Shown here in pieces: positions 18,091-24,747 of a stretch of DNA of 64,000 bases. The notes under the pieces were generated by a model. That model was not told where the DNA came from, ran no database searches, and was given only the letters and a program-made list of their open reading frames with translations. The stretch comes from Microlunatus panaciterrae (lineage in GTDB: Bacteria > Actinomycetota > Actinomycetes > Propionibacteriales > Propionibacteriaceae), in contig NZ_JAFBCF010000001.1 of NCBI RefSeq assembly GCF_016907535.1, positions 2,232,001 through 2,296,000 of the forward strand, written 5' to 3'. How positions within the stretch are numbered: position 1 is the first letter of the stretch; each line of letters begins with the position of its first letter. A program made the translations under genes and the position numbers.

Positions 18091-19560
18091 GTGGCCACAG
18101 TTGCGACGCCGGAGAAGGGGGCTGAACCGCCCGATTTGCCTCCGGTCAGGAGTCCCCTCCGCGGGGGCAGGGGCACGCTGGTCGTGGTCGGCCTGCTCTT
18201 TCTCGTGGTGCAGCTGGTGCTGGTGCCGCGACCCCTGGGGCTTGCCACGGATGAAGCGACCTACCTGGCCATGGTCGACCCGTCGGTGCCGGAGCTGTAC
18301 TGGTCCTCGTCCCGGGCGTGGGGGGTTCCGGTGCTCGCAGCCCCGATTGCCGTCTTCTCTCCCGGTCTGGGGGTCATCCGGCTCTACTTCAGCGTCCTCT
18401 CGAGCTGCCTACTGATCCTCGCCTTCTGGCCCTGGCTGCGCATCCTGCATCCGGCCGTCGCTCCGCTGGCGGCCCTGTTGTTCTCGACGACATGGTTCAC
18501 CGTGTGGTTCGGACCCTTGGTCATGCCCAACCTGTACGTCGCACTGTTCGCTGTGGCGGTGATCGGGCTGTTCCTGCGCTGCGTACAGGACCCGAGGTGG
18601 TGGCGAGCGGCCCTGGTTGCGACTGCCGCGGCATTGGTCGCCCTGGTCAGGCCCACGGACAGCGTCCTGGTGATCGTGCCCATCTTCGTCTGTGCTCTGG
18701 TGGTGCCGCGACTTCGCCGTCTCGGCGCACTCGGCGCCGTCGCCGTCGGCGAGCTCCTCGGCTGGTTGCCCTGGGTCATGGAGGCCTACGCGCGGTTCGG
18801 AGGGCCTCTGGCGAGACTGAGATCGGGCGAGAGCGCCGGGCCCGGTGGGCTCCACGTGAGCCTGGCCAATGTGCAGATCTACCCGCGTCTCCTCGATGGC
18901 ATCCCCACCTACTGTTGTCAACGCGGGTCGCTCGCGGACGCGGGGCCACTGCCACTGCTGCCGACTCTCTGGCTGGTCGCCATACCGATGGTGTCCGCGG
19001 TGGGGCTCCTCCTCGCCGCTCGACAGCGCCGGCTGCCAGAGCTGCTGCTGGTCTGCGTTCCGGCGGGTCTGCTCGCGGCCTTCTACCTGCTGCTGCCGTC
19101 CTTCACCGCGCTGCGCTTTCTGCTGCCGGTGTTCGCTCTGCTGTCGTTGGCGGTTGCCGGGGCATTGGTCAGCATGATCCAGCTCAGCCAGGGCAAGAGG
19201 CGGAAGGCCGTGGCCGCGGTCATCGCTGTCGGGCTGGTCGCGCACGTCGGTCCGATGCTCTACAAGGCGGACGGCATGCTGCACAGGATGGGAACGGTGC
19301 GGACGCCGGCCATCAGGATCGCCGCCGCGATCCGACCCCTGATCGGGGGGCGACCCTGCCTTCTGGTGGGCGCCGCGCCCCAAGCGCTCGGCTACTACCT
19401 CGGCTGTGAGGTACAGACGGTGCGGCGGCCCTCGAGGCGTCCACCAGCCCGAGTCCGAAGCGCGACGGCTCGAGGCCTGGTCAGGGTGGCGGTCCTGCGC
19501 AAGGCTCCACCGCCCGGCAGTTACCTGGACGACGAGCGGGACGAGTCCATCCCCGCCTGA
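18091..19560 (+). CDS. multispanning GT-C glycosyltransferase (glycan cassette gene 1)
   Basis: A 489-residue membrane protein with about eleven helices. The early luminal-loop acidic pair is in GLATDEATYLAMVDPSVP (around residues 50-67), the position of the catalytic acidic residue in GT39/ArnT-like enzymes. A polar cysteine-containing C-terminal region follows the last helix. The GTG start follows GAGGGGG. It is the first gene of a same-strand run of five carbohydrate genes and probably uses a polyprenyl-phosphate sugar made by the next gene. The acceptor is unknown. Confidence 0.75.
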   Translation: MATVATPEKGAEPPDLPPVRSPLRGGRGTLVVVGLLFLVVQLVLVPRPLGLATDEATYLAMVDPSVPELYWSSSRAWGVPVLAAPIAVFSPGLGVIRLYFSVLSSCLLILAFWPWLRILHPAVAPLAALLFSTTWFTVWFGPLVMPNLYVALFAVAVIGLFLRCVQDPRWWRAALVATAAALVALVRPTDSVLVIVPIFVCALVVPRLRRLGALGAVAVGELLGWLPWVMEAYARFGGPLARLRSGESAGPGGLHVSLANVQIYPRLLDGIPTYCCQRGSLADAGPLPLLPTLWLVAIPMVSAVGLLLAARQRRLPELLLVCVPAGLLAAFYLLLPSFTALRFLLPVFALLSLAVAGALVSMIQLSQGKRRKAVAAVIAVGLVAHVGPMLYKADGMLHRMGTVRTPAIRIAAAIRPLIGGRPCLLVGAAPQALGYYLGCEVQTVRRPSRRPPARVRSATARGLVRVAVLRKAPPPGSYLDDERDESIPA

Positions 19561-19670: not shown

Positions 19671-20501
19671 ATGTCACTACCTGCTGCCGACCTCGGCTCC
19701 TTGACGATCATCGTCCCGACGAGGAACGAGTCTGACAACGTCGCACCTCTGCTTGCCCGCTTGTCGAGCAGCCTGCCGTCGCCCGCGACGGTGCTGTTCG
19801 TCGACGACAGTGACGACGAGACACCGCTCGTGGTTGAGCAGGCCGGCCGTCGAGGCTATCCGGGCCTGGACGTGCAGCTCCTGCATCGACAGGGGGAACA
19901 GCGCCGCGGGGGCCTTGGGGGCGCCGTCCTGGCAGGCCTCGCCCGGACCGACACGACCTGGGTGTGTGTCATGGACGGTGATCTTCAGCACCCACCCGAG
20001 TGCGTGGCCTCGCTGCTGACGGCCGCCGTGGACGGGAGTGCCGACCTGGTGGTCGGCAGCCGCTACGTCCGCGGCGGCCGGAACGAGGGCCTCGGCGTGC
20101 TGAGAACCGCCGTCTCCTGGGGATCGACGGTATTGGCCAAGGCGGTCTTCCCCCATCGACTTCGTGACATCCGCGACCCGATGAGCGGCTTCTTCCTGTT
20201 CCGCCGTGAGGCGCTGACGGAGCCCATGACGCCTCGCGGGTTCAAGATCCTGTTGGAGATCGCCGTTCGTCACCCTGACCTGGTGCGCTGCGAGGTCCCG
20301 TTCGTCTTCGTCGAGCGAAGCGCAGGTACGTCGAAGGGAACCCTCAAGGAAGGGTTCCGCTATCTGCGACTGCTCGTCGACATGCGGCTCAGCCTGCGTG
20401 CTCGGCCGGCACCGTCGCAGGTCACCTCAGCGGTCGAGCTCGGCTGGGGAGTGCCAGTACCCGAGCGGCAGTCCGCAGCCGGACCGTCAGCGGAGGGCTG
20501 A
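19671..20501 (+). CDS. GT2 polyprenol-phosphate sugar synthase (DPM1-like)
   Basis: A 276-residue GT-A glycosyltransferase. It opens with LTIIVPTRNESDNVAPLL (nucleotide-binding fold) and continues with FVDDSDDET, the metal-binding VMDGDLQHPPE (DxD-type), and MSGFFLFRREAL. This is the arrangement of dolichol/polyprenol monophosphomannose synthases. It would provide the lipid-linked sugar for the GT-C enzymes on either side. It has no C-terminal membrane helices. It ends six bases before the next gene. Confidence 0.87.
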   Translation: MSLPAADLGSLTIIVPTRNESDNVAPLLARLSSSLPSPATVLFVDDSDDETPLVVEQAGRRGYPGLDVQLLHRQGEQRRGGLGGAVLAGLARTDTTWVCVMDGDLQHPPECVASLLTAAVDGSADLVVGSRYVRGGRNEGLGVLRTAVSWGSTVLAKAVFPHRLRDIRDPMSGFFLFRREALTEPMTPRGFKILLEIAVRHPDLVRCEVPFVFVERSAGTSKGTLKEGFRYLRLLVDMRLSLRARPAPSQVTSAVELGWGVPVPERQSAAGPSAEG

Positions 20502-20507
20502 GCGCAG

Positions 20508-21782
20508 ATGTTGAACACAGTCGTCGTCGTCGCCTACCTGGGAGCGACTGTCATCCTCCTGGTGGTGGCCATCAGCACCCTGACCTGGATGGTCGACTCC
20601 TGGCGCACCCCGGAGTCGATCGCCATGACCCGGTTCCCCGAGCCCGACGAGCCACGACTGTCCTTCTCGCTGCTGGTCCCCGCCCGCGACGAGGAGCAGG
20701 TGCTGCCGCACACCATCTCGCGGCTGCTCGAGTCGGACCATCCCGACTTCGAGGTGATCATCATCGTCGGCGACGACGATCCCGGGACAGCCGGCGTTGC
20801 CGAGCAGATCGCCGCCACAGATGAACGGGTGCGGGTGGCCGTCGACGCGCACCCGGTGAAGAACAAGCCCAAGGCGCTCAACACGGCCTTGCCGCTCTGC
20901 CGAGGTCTTATCGTCGGCGTCTTCGACGCCGAGGACGAGGCGTCCCCAGCGCTGCTCCGGCACGTGGATGCCTGCTTCCGTTCCACCCAGGCGCATGTCG
21001 TGCAGGGCGGCGTGCAGCTGATGAACTTCCAGTCCTCCTGGTGGTCGCTGCGCAACGTGCTGGAGTATTTCTTCTGGTTCTCCTCGCGGCTCCACCTGCA
21101 TGCACGCAAGCGTTTCATCCCGCTGGGTGGCAACACCGTCTTCGTCCGCACCGACCTGTTGCGGAAGGCGAAGGGCTGGGACCCGGACTGCCTGGCGGAG
21201 GACTGCGAGCTGGGAGTCCGGCTGTCCAGCTGGGGCGCTCGTGTCGCCGTCGCGTACAGCCCGGAGCTCACCACGCGCGAGGAGACCCCACCGACGCTGA
21301 AGGGCCTGTTCAAGCAGCGCACGCGCTGGAGCCAGGGTTTTCTGCAGGTCCTTCGCAAGGGCGAGTGGCGCAGGCTTCCCACCCGGCGGCAGAAGCTGAT
21401 GGCGGCGTATCTGCTCGTCATGCCCTTCCTGCAGGCGTTCTCCGGAGCACTGGTGCCAGTAGCGCTGGTGTCGATGTTCCTGCTGAAGGCACCCGACCTG
21501 GCGGTGATGGCGACCTTCGCACCGCTGCTGCCCACCGTCGCCACGGTGGCCGTGGAGGTGGTGGGTCTGCACGAGTTCGGGCGTGCCTTCGACGAGAAGG
21601 TGCGGCTGCGCGACTACGTCAAGCTGGTTCTCGGAACGCTGCCCTACCAGCTCATCCTCGCCGCGGCGGCGATGCGCGCCTCCGCGCGTGAGCTGCAGGG
21701 GGTCCGGACCTGGGAGAAGACGAGCCACGTCGGTGCCCATCGACCTGTCCACGTCACCGATCAGCAGGAGTCAGTGCTGTGA
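20508..21782 (+). CDS. membrane-bound processive-type GT2 glycosyltransferase
   Basis: A 424-residue protein: one N-terminal helix (residues 2-27), a cytosolic GT2 domain and three or four C-terminal helices. Catalytic signatures are FDAEDEASP (DxD), AEDCELGVRL (ED of the TED motif) and QRTRWSQGFLQV, the QxxRW motif typical of polymer-forming transferases. It resembles the cellulose/hyaluronan synthase architecture and so may elongate a polysaccharide. Its stop overlaps the next start (GTGA), which implies translational coupling. Confidence 0.87.
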   Translation: MLNTVVVVAYLGATVILLVVAISTLTWMVDSWRTPESIAMTRFPEPDEPRLSFSLLVPARDEEQVLPHTISRLLESDHPDFEVIIIVGDDDPGTAGVAEQIAATDERVRVAVDAHPVKNKPKALNTALPLCRGLIVGVFDAEDEASPALLRHVDACFRSTQAHVVQGGVQLMNFQSSWWSLRNVLEYFFWFSSRLHLHARKRFIPLGGNTVFVRTDLLRKAKGWDPDCLAEDCELGVRLSSWGARVAVAYSPELTTREETPPTLKGLFKQRTRWSQGFLQVLRKGEWRRLPTRRQKLMAAYLLVMPFLQAFSGALVPVALVSMFLLKAPDLAVMATFAPLLPTVATVAVEVVGLHEFGRAFDEKVRLRDYVKLVLGTLPYQLILAAAAMRASARELQGVRTWEKTSHVGAHRPVHVTDQQESVL

Positions 21783-23506
21783 GCCTCCGAACAGAACTGC
21801 CTCCGCTCGATCTCGAGCTTGATCTCGAGGCGCTCGAACGTGCAGTCAGGCCGACGCCGGCCGAGCGGCTGCAACGCCTGCGTGAGCGCCTGGTGGACCG
21901 GCTGCGCCGCGACTGGCTGGACCTGACCCTGCTCTCGACCCTGTTCGTCGTGGCGGCCGTCGTGCATGCCCGAGGCATGTACCTGTCGCCGGCGCGCTTC
22001 GATGACGAGGGCACCTACACCGCCTACGCCTGGTCCGTGCCCAACCTGCACCGGCTGGCGCACTACACGTACTGGTATGCGCATCCGCCGCTGGGGCAGT
22101 TGCAGATGGCGTTCTACAACGTGGTGACCGACGCCTTCGAACGGCTGCCGTACGCCGTCGCCACGGGCCGTGAGTTCATGCTGGTGTGCAAGCTGATCTC
22201 GGTGGTGCTGTTGTTCCGGCTGGCTCGTCGGCTCCAGTTCGGCCGTGCCACGACGACGCTTGCGGTGATCATGTTCTCGCTGAGCCCGCTGGCGGTCTAC
22301 TTCCAGCGGACCGCGCTGCTGGACAACCTGGTGACGCCCTGGTTGTTGGCGGCCTTCTTCTTCGCCGCCTCACCGAGACGCTCGATCCAGGCGGCCGCGG
22401 CGAGTGCAACCTGCTTCGCGATCGCTGTGCTGACCAAGGAGACCGCGCTGTTGTTCATGCCCGCGCTCCTGCTGCTCTTCTGGCAGCGCACCGACCAGCG
22501 CAACCGCAAGTTCACCGTGACCATGTACATGATGGTGGTATCCCTGCTGGGGCTGATGTATCCGCTGTACGCTCAGATCAAGAACGAGCTCTGGGCTGGG
22601 CCGGGCCACGTCAGCCTGCAGTGGGCGATCCAGTGGCAGCTGTTCGACCGGGTCGGCAGCGGAAGCATCTTCGACCCCGCCAGCACCGCCCACAAGGTCG
22701 TCACCACCTGGCTGGGCCTCGACCACTGGTCCTGTCTGGCCTGCCTCGTCGCCATCGTTCCCGGCCTGCTGCTCCGTCGCACCCGGGCGTTCGCCGTCGC
22801 CTTCGCGATCCAGGTGAGCAGCCTGCTGCGCAACGGCTATCTGCCGTACCCGTTCATCATCGCGATGATCCCGTTTGCGGCGCTCACCTTCGCCGGTGTG
22901 ATCGACATCCTGTGGAAGTGGTCGAGAGTGTCGGAGCGGCTCCCTCGGCATGCCTGGCCGGTCGACCGGCTCCGGGCCGTGGCCAGCATCACCCTCCATA
23001 TCGGCACCCGTCTGCTGGTCGCCGGCACCGTGGTCGCGCTCTCCCTGGTGGTGTCCGGGCCCTGGCGGTACGGGCTCGAGGACCTGTGGACGAGCAACCG
23101 GGACGCCGGCAAGGCGGCCGCGCTGTCCTGGCTCAAGAGCAACGTCGACCATGAGGACACCCTCGTTGTCGATGACGCCTTCTGGGTCGACCTGGTCCGT
23201 TCCGGGCATCCCCGCAAGAAGGTCATCTGGTTCACCAAGCTCGATGTGGACAAGGATGTTGCATTGCCGGCCAGTCAGCCGTGGCGCACCATCGACTTCA
23301 TCGCGCTGGACCGGCAGGACGCCTTGTCGCTGCACCTCAACGACGACCTGACCCCGAGCCGCGACACCAAGAACCAGTTCCCAACCCTGGCCAAGGCCAT
23401 CGAGAATGGCCGGATCGTGGCGAGCTTCGGAGCGCCCGAGGACCGGGCGACGATCTGGCGGGTGTCGCCCCCGGCGCCGCCGATCGCTGCCAGAGAGAAG
23501 CGTTGA
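21779..23506 (+). CDS. GT39-like dolichyl-phosphate-mannose protein mannosyltransferase family
   Basis: A 575-residue protein with an N-terminal charged segment, ten or more helices and a ~110-residue extracytoplasmic tail. The first loop contains RFDDEGTYTAYAW, with the DDE typical of GT39/GT83 catalytic loops, and the second loop AHPPLGQLQM carries the conserved HPPLG. It should transfer a lipid-linked sugar outside the membrane. It is translationally coupled to the GT2 gene and overlaps the next gene by one base. Confidence 0.85.
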   Translation: MSLRTELPPLDLELDLEALERAVRPTPAERLQRLRERLVDRLRRDWLDLTLLSTLFVVAAVVHARGMYLSPARFDDEGTYTAYAWSVPNLHRLAHYTYWYAHPPLGQLQMAFYNVVTDAFERLPYAVATGREFMLVCKLISVVLLFRLARRLQFGRATTTLAVIMFSLSPLAVYFQRTALLDNLVTPWLLAAFFFAASPRRSIQAAAASATCFAIAVLTKETALLFMPALLLLFWQRTDQRNRKFTVTMYMMVVSLLGLMYPLYAQIKNELWAGPGHVSLQWAIQWQLFDRVGSGSIFDPASTAHKVVTTWLGLDHWSCLACLVAIVPGLLLRRTRAFAVAFAIQVSSLLRNGYLPYPFIIAMIPFAALTFAGVIDILWKWSRVSERLPRHAWPVDRLRAVASITLHIGTRLLVAGTVVALSLVVSGPWRYGLEDLWTSNRDAGKAAALSWLKSNVDHEDTLVVDDAFWVDLVRSGHPRKKVIWFTKLDVDKDVALPASQPWRTIDFIALDRQDALSLHLNDDLTPSRDTKNQFPTLAKAIENGRIVASFGAPEDRATIWRVSPPAPPIAAREKR

Positions 23507-24747
23507 TGGGCCAGCAGCTGGCCGGGCTCAGCCGCACCGCCGAGCCACCGGCAACGCTGTCCCGCCACCCCCGCCGGCGCAGGCTGATCGCGGCCGGCGC
23601 GGCCCTGTCCCTGATCGCCGGCCTTGCCACCTTCCTCGTCAGCAGCAACTCCAGCCCGGACTGTGTCGACTCGCCGGTCACTGCCCAGGCGCTGTCCGAC
23701 CTGGGCGGCTACGTCGACTGGCTGCACAAGAACAAGGTGCGCGGCTACGTCGGCGAGGTCGGCTGGCCGTCGGGGCCGGACGCGCGCGACTGGAATGAGG
23801 TGGCTTCCCACTGGTACGACGCCGCTGACCGCGACGGCCTCTGGGTCACCGCCTGGGCGGCGGGGAAGTGGTGGCCGGATTCGTACCAACTGACGGTCTA
23901 TCGACTCACTGGAGCGCGCGAACCGGCGGACGCCGGTGCCCAGGCCGCAGTCGTGGAGGCACACGCCGACGTGTCCGGCGCGCTGCGCGGAGTCGACCTG
24001 CCGAGCGGCGCGTTCGCTTCCGGACCTGAGGGCCCGAGCACCTACAGCGGCACCACACCGGGACGCTACGGCCGGGACTACTACTACGAGGACGCCGCTG
24101 ATCTTCGCCAGGTCGCCAAGACCGGTGCCGACGTCGTGCGGATCTCGGTCACCTGGGAGCGGCTGCAGCACCAGCCGGGCGGTCCCCTCGACCAGACCGA
24201 GCTGGAACGGGTGCGGGCGACCCTGCGAGCGGCGGAGACCGTCGGTCTCGGTGTGGTGCTGGACCTGCACAACTACGGCGACTACTGGGTGGCTGACGGC
24301 TCGGGACACCGCCGGCTGACCCTGGGCACCCCTGACCTTCCCGATGACCAGTTCGCTGACCTGTGGCGCCAGCTGAGTACCGCCTTGCGCGACTCCACCG
24401 CGATCATCGGATACGGGCTGATGAATGAGCCGACCAACCTGGCCGCCGATCCGACCGAAGGGGCCCACCGTTGGCAGGTGGCCTCGCAGGCCGCTGTCCA
24501 GGCGATCCGGCAGACCGGTGATCATCGCACCGTCTTCGTCACCGGCTACGGCGGGGCGTCACCGAGCCAATGGGTCCGCTACCACCCCCGGGCGTGGATC
24601 GACGACCCGGCCGACCAGGTCCGGTATGAGACCCATCAGTACTTCGACACCGATCGCACCGGTCGCTACACCCGAACCTTCAGGGAGGAGACCCTGCGAG
24701 CGCGCGGGTCTGGCTTCGGGACCTTCTGCCCTGCGACGAAACAATGA
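23506..24747 (+). CDS. membrane-anchored GH5-type glycoside hydrolase with permuted motif order
   Basis: A 413-residue protein: basic N-terminus, one signal-anchor helix (residues 27-46), then a soluble region. GH5-type motifs occur in an unusual order. RGYVGEVGWPSG with candidate nucleophile Glu84 and GLWVTAWAAG (residues 79-120) come first; they normally end the barrel. They are followed by GVDLPSGAF (162-170), RISVTWERLQ (212-221), DLHNYG (253-258), GLMNEP with acid/base Glu308, and HQYFD (377-381). The C-terminus ends where a normal enzyme would continue to the nucleophile strand. This suggests a circularly permuted TIM barrel. It ends the five-gene glycan cassette, where it may trim or release the product. 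Confidence 0.78.
   Translation: MGQQLAGLSRTAEPPATLSRHPRRRRLIAAGAALSLIAGLATFLVSSNSSPDCVDSPVTAQALSDLGGYVDWLHKNKVRGYVGEVGWPSGPDARDWNEVASHWYDAADRDGLWVTAWAAGKWWPDSYQLTVYRLTGAREPADAGAQAAVVEAHADVSGALRGVDLPSGAFASGPEGPSTYSGTTPGRYGRDYYYEDAADLRQVAKTGADVVRISVTWERLQHQPGGPLDQTELERVRATLRAAETVGLGVVLDLHNYGDYWVADGSGHRRLTLGTPDLPDDQFADLWRQLSTALRDSTAIIGYGLMNEPTNLAADPTEGAHRWQVASQAAVQAIRQTGDHRTVFVTGYGGASPSQWVRYHPRAWIDDPADQVRYETHQYFDTDRTGRYTRTFREETLRARGSGFGTFCPATKQ

Follow-up and report, generated by a model that had tools for sequence, protein, structure and literature searches.

A GH5-type barrel with a natural circular permutation in Actinomycetota, supported by sequence order, conservation and a predicted fold

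GH5 is among the largest and best-studied glycoside hydrolase families, and to our knowledge all descriptions of it give a single strand order. The acid/base residue usually comes ahead of the nucleophile, an order that is customary in GH5 but that the family definition does not formally require. The closest described relatives of the protein reported here, which we name cpGH5, are the GH5 endo-1,4-beta-glucanases of the Cel5A/RBcel1 type (GH5_5; structures 5hpc, 4w7u, 4lx4 and 4ee9). They share with cpGH5 the PF00150 domain, the catalytic Glu pair, the His and Tyr of strand 6, and the WERLQ, NEP and EAHQYFD motifs. They differ in that cpGH5 has strands 7-8 and the nucleophile first, with the chain cut in the loop between strand 6 and helix 6 and the old termini joined. 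The best PDB matches were Cel5A enzymes and RBcel1, a comparison made without subfamily models or other-subfamily outgroups; RBcel1 itself has been assigned to GH5_5 (PMC8900817). A permuted glycoside hydrolase barrel is already known in the GH70 glucansucrases relative to GH13 (PMC11299179, PMC4919382). As in cpGH5, the catalytic (beta/alpha)8 barrel of a glycoside hydrolase lineage has there been circularly permuted in nature, but GH70 belongs to a different family, works on alpha-glucans and represents an independent event. The third comparison is BcsZ (GH8), an endoglucanase whose gene lies beside the GT2 synthase in cellulose operons and which acts on the product of that synthase (PMC5070118). 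The placement of an endoglucanase gene with a GT2 synthase is common to both cases, whereas GH8 has an unrelated fold, and the cpGH5 locus adds PMT-type and DPM-type transferases and makes an unknown polymer. No description of a naturally permuted GH5 enzyme turned up in the open literature; subscription papers and CAZy pages were outside the scope of that search, and prior notice is possible.

The window is a stretch of 64,000 nucleotides from Microlunatus panaciterrae, and all coordinates without a locus name refer to it. The gene and the parts of its product are as follows.

23506..24747, + strand: cpGH5, the circularly permuted GH5 enzyme, 413 aa, ATG start
23584..23640, + strand: residues 27-45, a hydrophobic stretch that follows RRRR and is a signal anchor or a signal peptide, from a reading of the sequence
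23662..23664, + strand: Cys53, directly ahead of the first barrel helix
23674..23853, + strand: the moved piece, with helix 6 (57-75), strand 7 (79-86), helix 7 (93-109) and strand 8 (113-116)
23755..23757, + strand: Glu84, expected nucleophile, strand 7; aligns with GFLGEFA / GFLGEYG of solved Cel5A
23905..23985, + strand: last helix and short new linker from old C-terminus to old N-terminus, residues 134-160
23986..24642, + strand: barrel strands 1-6, residues 161-379, from the PF00150 match and the model strands
24427..24429, + strand: Glu308, expected acid/base, in NEP, strand 4
24634..24642, + strand: His377 and Tyr379 of HQYFD, strand 6
24727..24729, + strand: Cys408, close to the C-terminus, possible disulfide partner of Cys53 across the seam

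A first-pass annotation of this DNA had proposed a circularly permuted GH5 barrel from the order of its motifs, and the motifs lie where it placed them. The nucleophile motif GEVG (with Glu84) and TAWAAG (115-120) precede GVDLPSGAF (162-170), WERLQ (217-221), DLHNYG (253-258) and NEP (307-309). As had also been noticed, the chain stops soon after HQYFD (377-381): it ends 32 residues later, at the stop codon (24745-24747), and nothing of the barrel remains 3' of it. The same annotation had the new N-terminus fused to a membrane anchor. An anchor is likely, given the hydrophobic residues 27-45 after RRRR, but a cleaved signal peptide is also possible; the helix that AlphaFold2 places at 22-34 has low confidence. 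No sigma-70-like promoter or terminator was found between 23400 and 25200.

Pfam PF00150 matches residues 185-389 of cpGH5 (E 2.6e-34, 119 bits against a cut-off of 23.5) and covers profile positions 16-205 of 272, that is, GH5 without its last third. The last third is found at the other end of the protein. Among solved structures, Cel5A of Xanthomonas (5hpc, 4w7u, 5hnn) and Cel5A of Pseudomonas stutzeri (4lx4) match best. For the three best-scoring chains (5hpc, 4w7u and 5hnn), query residues 180-387 match chain residues 35-234 and query residues 49-133 match chain residues 234-315, so that the two pieces abut at a single chain residue, 234, which is the pattern that a circular permutation predicts. 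The N-terminal piece on its own matches the C-terminal part of the solved Cel5A enzymes with i-Evalues of 1.2e-4 to 1.8e-4, a match beyond chance. We classified 21 distinct proteins as permuted, against at least 17 conventional relatives in the same data; the profile, the alignment and the invariance counts use 20 of the permuted proteins, as the 21st (at locus L080) was classified later. The profile of the permuted family finds 4lx4 at 5e-69, again with the pieces swapped, and the second piece alone at 1.6e-4. A conventional-order profile, built only from the 17 conventional relatives, was scored against the 20 permuted proteins both in their natural order and re-ordered. In the window protein, the N-terminal piece corresponds to model positions 219-287 (4.8e-16) and residues 182-396 to positions 12-211. 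All 20 behave alike: the N-terminal piece falls inside model positions 199-305 and the second piece inside 2-215, with the seam near position 210-220 of 320, and re-ordering the sequence gives a single continuous match with a higher score. In each of the 20, the two pieces are homologous to one protein, are swapped and tile it once, which meets the criterion for a circular permutation. The usual GH5 order is not met in cpGH5, where nucleophile 84 precedes acid/base 308.

The window protein has all eight GH5 active-site residues (two Glu, Arg, His, Asn, His, Tyr and Trp). Glu84, Glu308 and His377 are invariant in the 20 aligned permuted sequences, and Arg212, Asn307 and Tyr379 are nearly so. 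In RBcel1 the catalytic set comprises Glu135, Tyr201 and Glu245, with Glu245 as the nucleophile and Glu135 as the acid/base (PMC8900817). Since Glu84 and Glu308 align with Glu245 and Glu135, activity is expected, and it has not been shown: both the activity and the substrate of cpGH5 are inferred, without activity data. cpGH5 would be an exported retaining beta-glycanase of the GH5 type. Some members of the family need not be active, as one (P0002) has Gln in place of the DLHN His and another (L057) has REP in place of NEP.

The cpGH5 gene is the last in a row of glycosyltransferase genes.

18091-19560: PMT_2-like gene, upstream
19671..20501, + strand: GT2, similar to DPM/polyprenyl-phosphate-sugar synthases
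20508..21782, + strand: GT2b, a GT2 membrane glycosyltransferase with the QxxRW motif as QRTRW (read by eye)
21779..23506, + strand: PMT_2-type membrane glycosyltransferase (second PMT_2 gene)

GT2b and PMT overlap by four bases (GTGA at 21779-21782), and the PMT stop codon and the cpGH5 start codon share one base (TGATG at 23504-23508). The order DPM-like GT2, GT2b, PMT, cpGH5 recurs at two other loci, L018 and L019. A third, L021, has GT2b, PMT and cpGH5 on a contig that starts inside the preceding gene. At these three loci GT2b is 67-71% identical to that of the window and PMT 54-57%. Looser arrangements occur in both Demequina loci, where GT2b and PMT lie 3-6 kb off on the other strand, and in genome G127, where they are near both of its permuted copies. 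Around most permuted members beyond the window's branch the GT2-PMT cassette is absent. Other settings include L063, with a cellulose-synthase-like GT2 1 kb upstream of the permuted GH5, and L073, where the permuted GH5 lies among Wzy_C and GT4 genes. Separately, a gene for a CBM96 and calcineurin-like phosphoesterase protein follows the cassette in L019 (9678-12470) and is common to L021 and L018; it was not found near the window gene.

A role like that of BcsZ calls for coupling with a GT2 synthase gene, and this is met in the window's branch only. There the cpGH5 gene closes a coupled GT2-PMT-GH5 unit, and its product would trim or release the polysaccharide of the neighbouring GT2. By analogy with BcsZ we hold such a biosynthetic role to be probable in the window's branch, with no great assurance, and cleavage of the product is inferred without biochemistry; permuted members outside this branch may have a different role. 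A permuted enzyme of the same fold could instead degrade external polysaccharide or remodel the wall, taking no part in what its neighbours synthesize. This remains possible, if on the unlikely side. The cassette is missing for most members outside the window's branch, several members have Tat-like or plain signal peptides, and one, L080, carries CWB2 repeats; yet the window's branch couples the gene to GT2b and PMT, a coupling conserved in three further genomes, and Wzy_C and GT4 genes lie near L073.

Structure prediction was carried out with AlphaFold2 on the 20-row alignment. For the whole chain the model has pLDDT 86.4 and pTM 0.84; for residues 51-413, pLDDT 91.9 and pTM 0.92, with a single compact domain. 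The barrel strands in the model are 79-86, 113-116, 161-165, 210-216, 249-255, 300-307, 342-346 and 372-379. In chain order these correspond to conventional strands 7-8-1-2-3-4-5-6, all eight in one domain, so that the (beta/alpha)8 barrel required of GH5 is met by prediction. The first-pass annotation had proposed structure prediction as a check on whether residues 55-130 complete the barrel formed by 160-400; in the model, residues 79-86 and 113-116 take the place of the missing strands. Foldseek returns GH5 endoglucanases as the top PDB fold matches, with about 230-260 columns aligned and a target TM of about 0.6. A partial alignment is as expected for a permuted barrel, Foldseek being sequential, and with the rest of the barrel left unaligned the evidence that strands 7-8 close it comes from AlphaFold2. 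A first segment that forms a separate domain is very unlikely, as both the conventional-order profile and the AlphaFold2 model stand against it. The N-terminal piece might instead close the barrel of a second molecule. Such a swapped dimer is not forbidden by the sequence, and the stretch around 121-146 is modelled with lower confidence, but the confident monomer model (pTM 0.92) and the short linker make it very improbable.

In the permuted barrel, the new chain would start in the loop past old strand 6 and run through helix 6, strand 7 (with Glu84) and strand 8. A short linker joining the old termini would lead into strands 1-6, with Glu308, and the chain would end at the same loop where it began. 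The strand-to-helix loops of (beta/alpha)8 barrels form the catalytic face. Because the cut falls in such a loop, between strand 6 and helix 6, both new ends, and the anchor if it is not cleaved, would lie on the cleft side, an orientation that is inferred; with the termini at the catalytic face, an anchor at the N-terminus would keep the active site facing the membrane. Only two Cys occur in the window protein, Cys53 and Cys408, one at each end of the chain. In the 20-row alignment six sequences have Cys at both ends, with none between Trp72 and Tyr388, and 14 have Cys at neither end. L080, the 21st protein, has both, making the pair both-or-neither in 21 of 21. On the tree the pair changes state only about three times, which does not suffice for a test of independent pairs. 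In both AlphaFold2 models DSSP reports isolated bridge residues at 54 and 407, adjoining Cys53 and Cys408 (the bridge partners are not listed), and in the models this fits a contact between the two chain ends. A Cys53-Cys408 disulfide across the seam is inferred, and in some members a disulfide between the end Cys would probably close the seam. We suggest, tentatively and with more doubt than conviction, that the permutation was retained for its effect on the tether. The attachment point would have shifted from the barrel bottom to the catalytic face, with the cleft facing the membrane, where the enzyme would cut the polymer emerging from the GT2 synthase, and the disulfide between the new ends would replace the lost peptide link and stabilise the seam outside the cell.

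The relatives come from several searches. On genome contigs a scan with the single protein gave no match, and a three-row alignment gave 25 loci. The genome-contig scan yielded loci L018-L025, a class-wide genome search yielded two full-length homologues in one genome (G127), and phylum-wide searches added further loci. Named sources are a Pseudonocardiales MAG, Peterkaempfera griseoplana (Streptomycetaceae), two Demequina and a Rubrobacteraceae MAG; others are assigned only to Actinomycetota. According to the whole-genome searches, permuted members occur in at least five class groups of Actinomycetota, the window's class and four others. Of 391 other genomes in the order to which the window belongs, none has a permuted GH5, and the sole match (in G047) is conventional; the gene is on this account a rarity in the window genome and may have been acquired. 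The permuted form was not seen in the plasmids or viral contigs searched.

PF00150 is significant in all 20 aligned permuted members. The other 19 homologues in the alignment stop shortly past the same strand as the window protein, the chain ending 14-33 residues beyond the conserved Tyr388, many at GY or GF. The comparison with homologues that the first-pass annotation had proposed finds the permuted order common to 21 proteins, and no truncated normal-order homologues. A conventional GH5 that lacks its C-terminal part through a pseudogene, frameshift or assembly error, and whose first segment is unrelated or a remnant, would account for a chain that stops where strands 7-8 would come next, and the broken fragment at L042 tells us that decayed copies exist, but this reading is hardly tenable when 21 proteins from many genomes share the order and the stop site, the part that is missing is found in the first segment, and no remainder lies downstream. 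Truncation, frameshift and assembly error are refuted by homologues with intact frames and the permuted order. The permutation proposed at first pass is supported by three separate tests, namely sequence order, conservation in 21 proteins and a confident single-domain model, and we are highly confident that cpGH5 is a GH5 barrel with a natural circular permutation, its closure being predicted by AlphaFold2. The family-wide order, the Cys pair at the chain ends and the membership of a glycosyltransferase cassette go beyond what had been noted.

In the tree of re-ordered sequences, the permuted proteins form one side of a branch with support 100/99. A tree of strands 1-6 alone has no clean permuted clade, with the conventional row L026 joining weakly; one permuted clade is not rejected (AU p 0.248). 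As the strands 1-6 tree is unclean, a single origin is likely and unproven. Most likely the permuted order would have arisen once in Actinomycetota and then been kept. The simplest route, by inference, would be a tandem duplication followed by loss of the outer parts; a redundant intermediate, with the strand 7-8 piece at both ends, was not seen among the fetched loci.

As Pfam covers strands 1-6 only, standard annotation reads the permuted proteins as incomplete cellulases. A permutation shared by a family of at least 21 members amounts to an experiment by nature on the benefits of permuting a barrel, and it provides ready-made permuted enzymes; the seam Cys pair and the catalytic-face anchor lead to direct, testable predictions.

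Several loci have features of their own. L042 (7887-8189, an Acidimicrobiales MAG) holds a lone conserved permuted N-terminal piece, with a signal peptide and GYVGEVGWP, after which the frame is lost; it is probably a decayed copy of a permuted GH5. Contig G127:C206 has two diverged permuted GH5 genes (L013/L023 and L017/L027) about 14 kb apart, one of them lipoprotein-like (LLTGAC), with a GT2 gene beside each copy. Five permuted members beyond the window's branch (L025, L048, L054, L055 and L058) have twin-arginine-like starts such as RRRF, RRGF and RREF, which, read by eye, suggest export as a folded protein. In L080 (1348-3648) the permuted GH5 is followed by three C-terminal CWB2 wall-binding repeats, with a Cys at each barrel end. 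Finally, L062 (4413-6362, viral contig IMGVR_UViG_3300043313_001323) encodes a conventional GH5 with an insert of about 150 aa right past the NEP strand, which splits its profile match into model positions 2-136 and 136-300.
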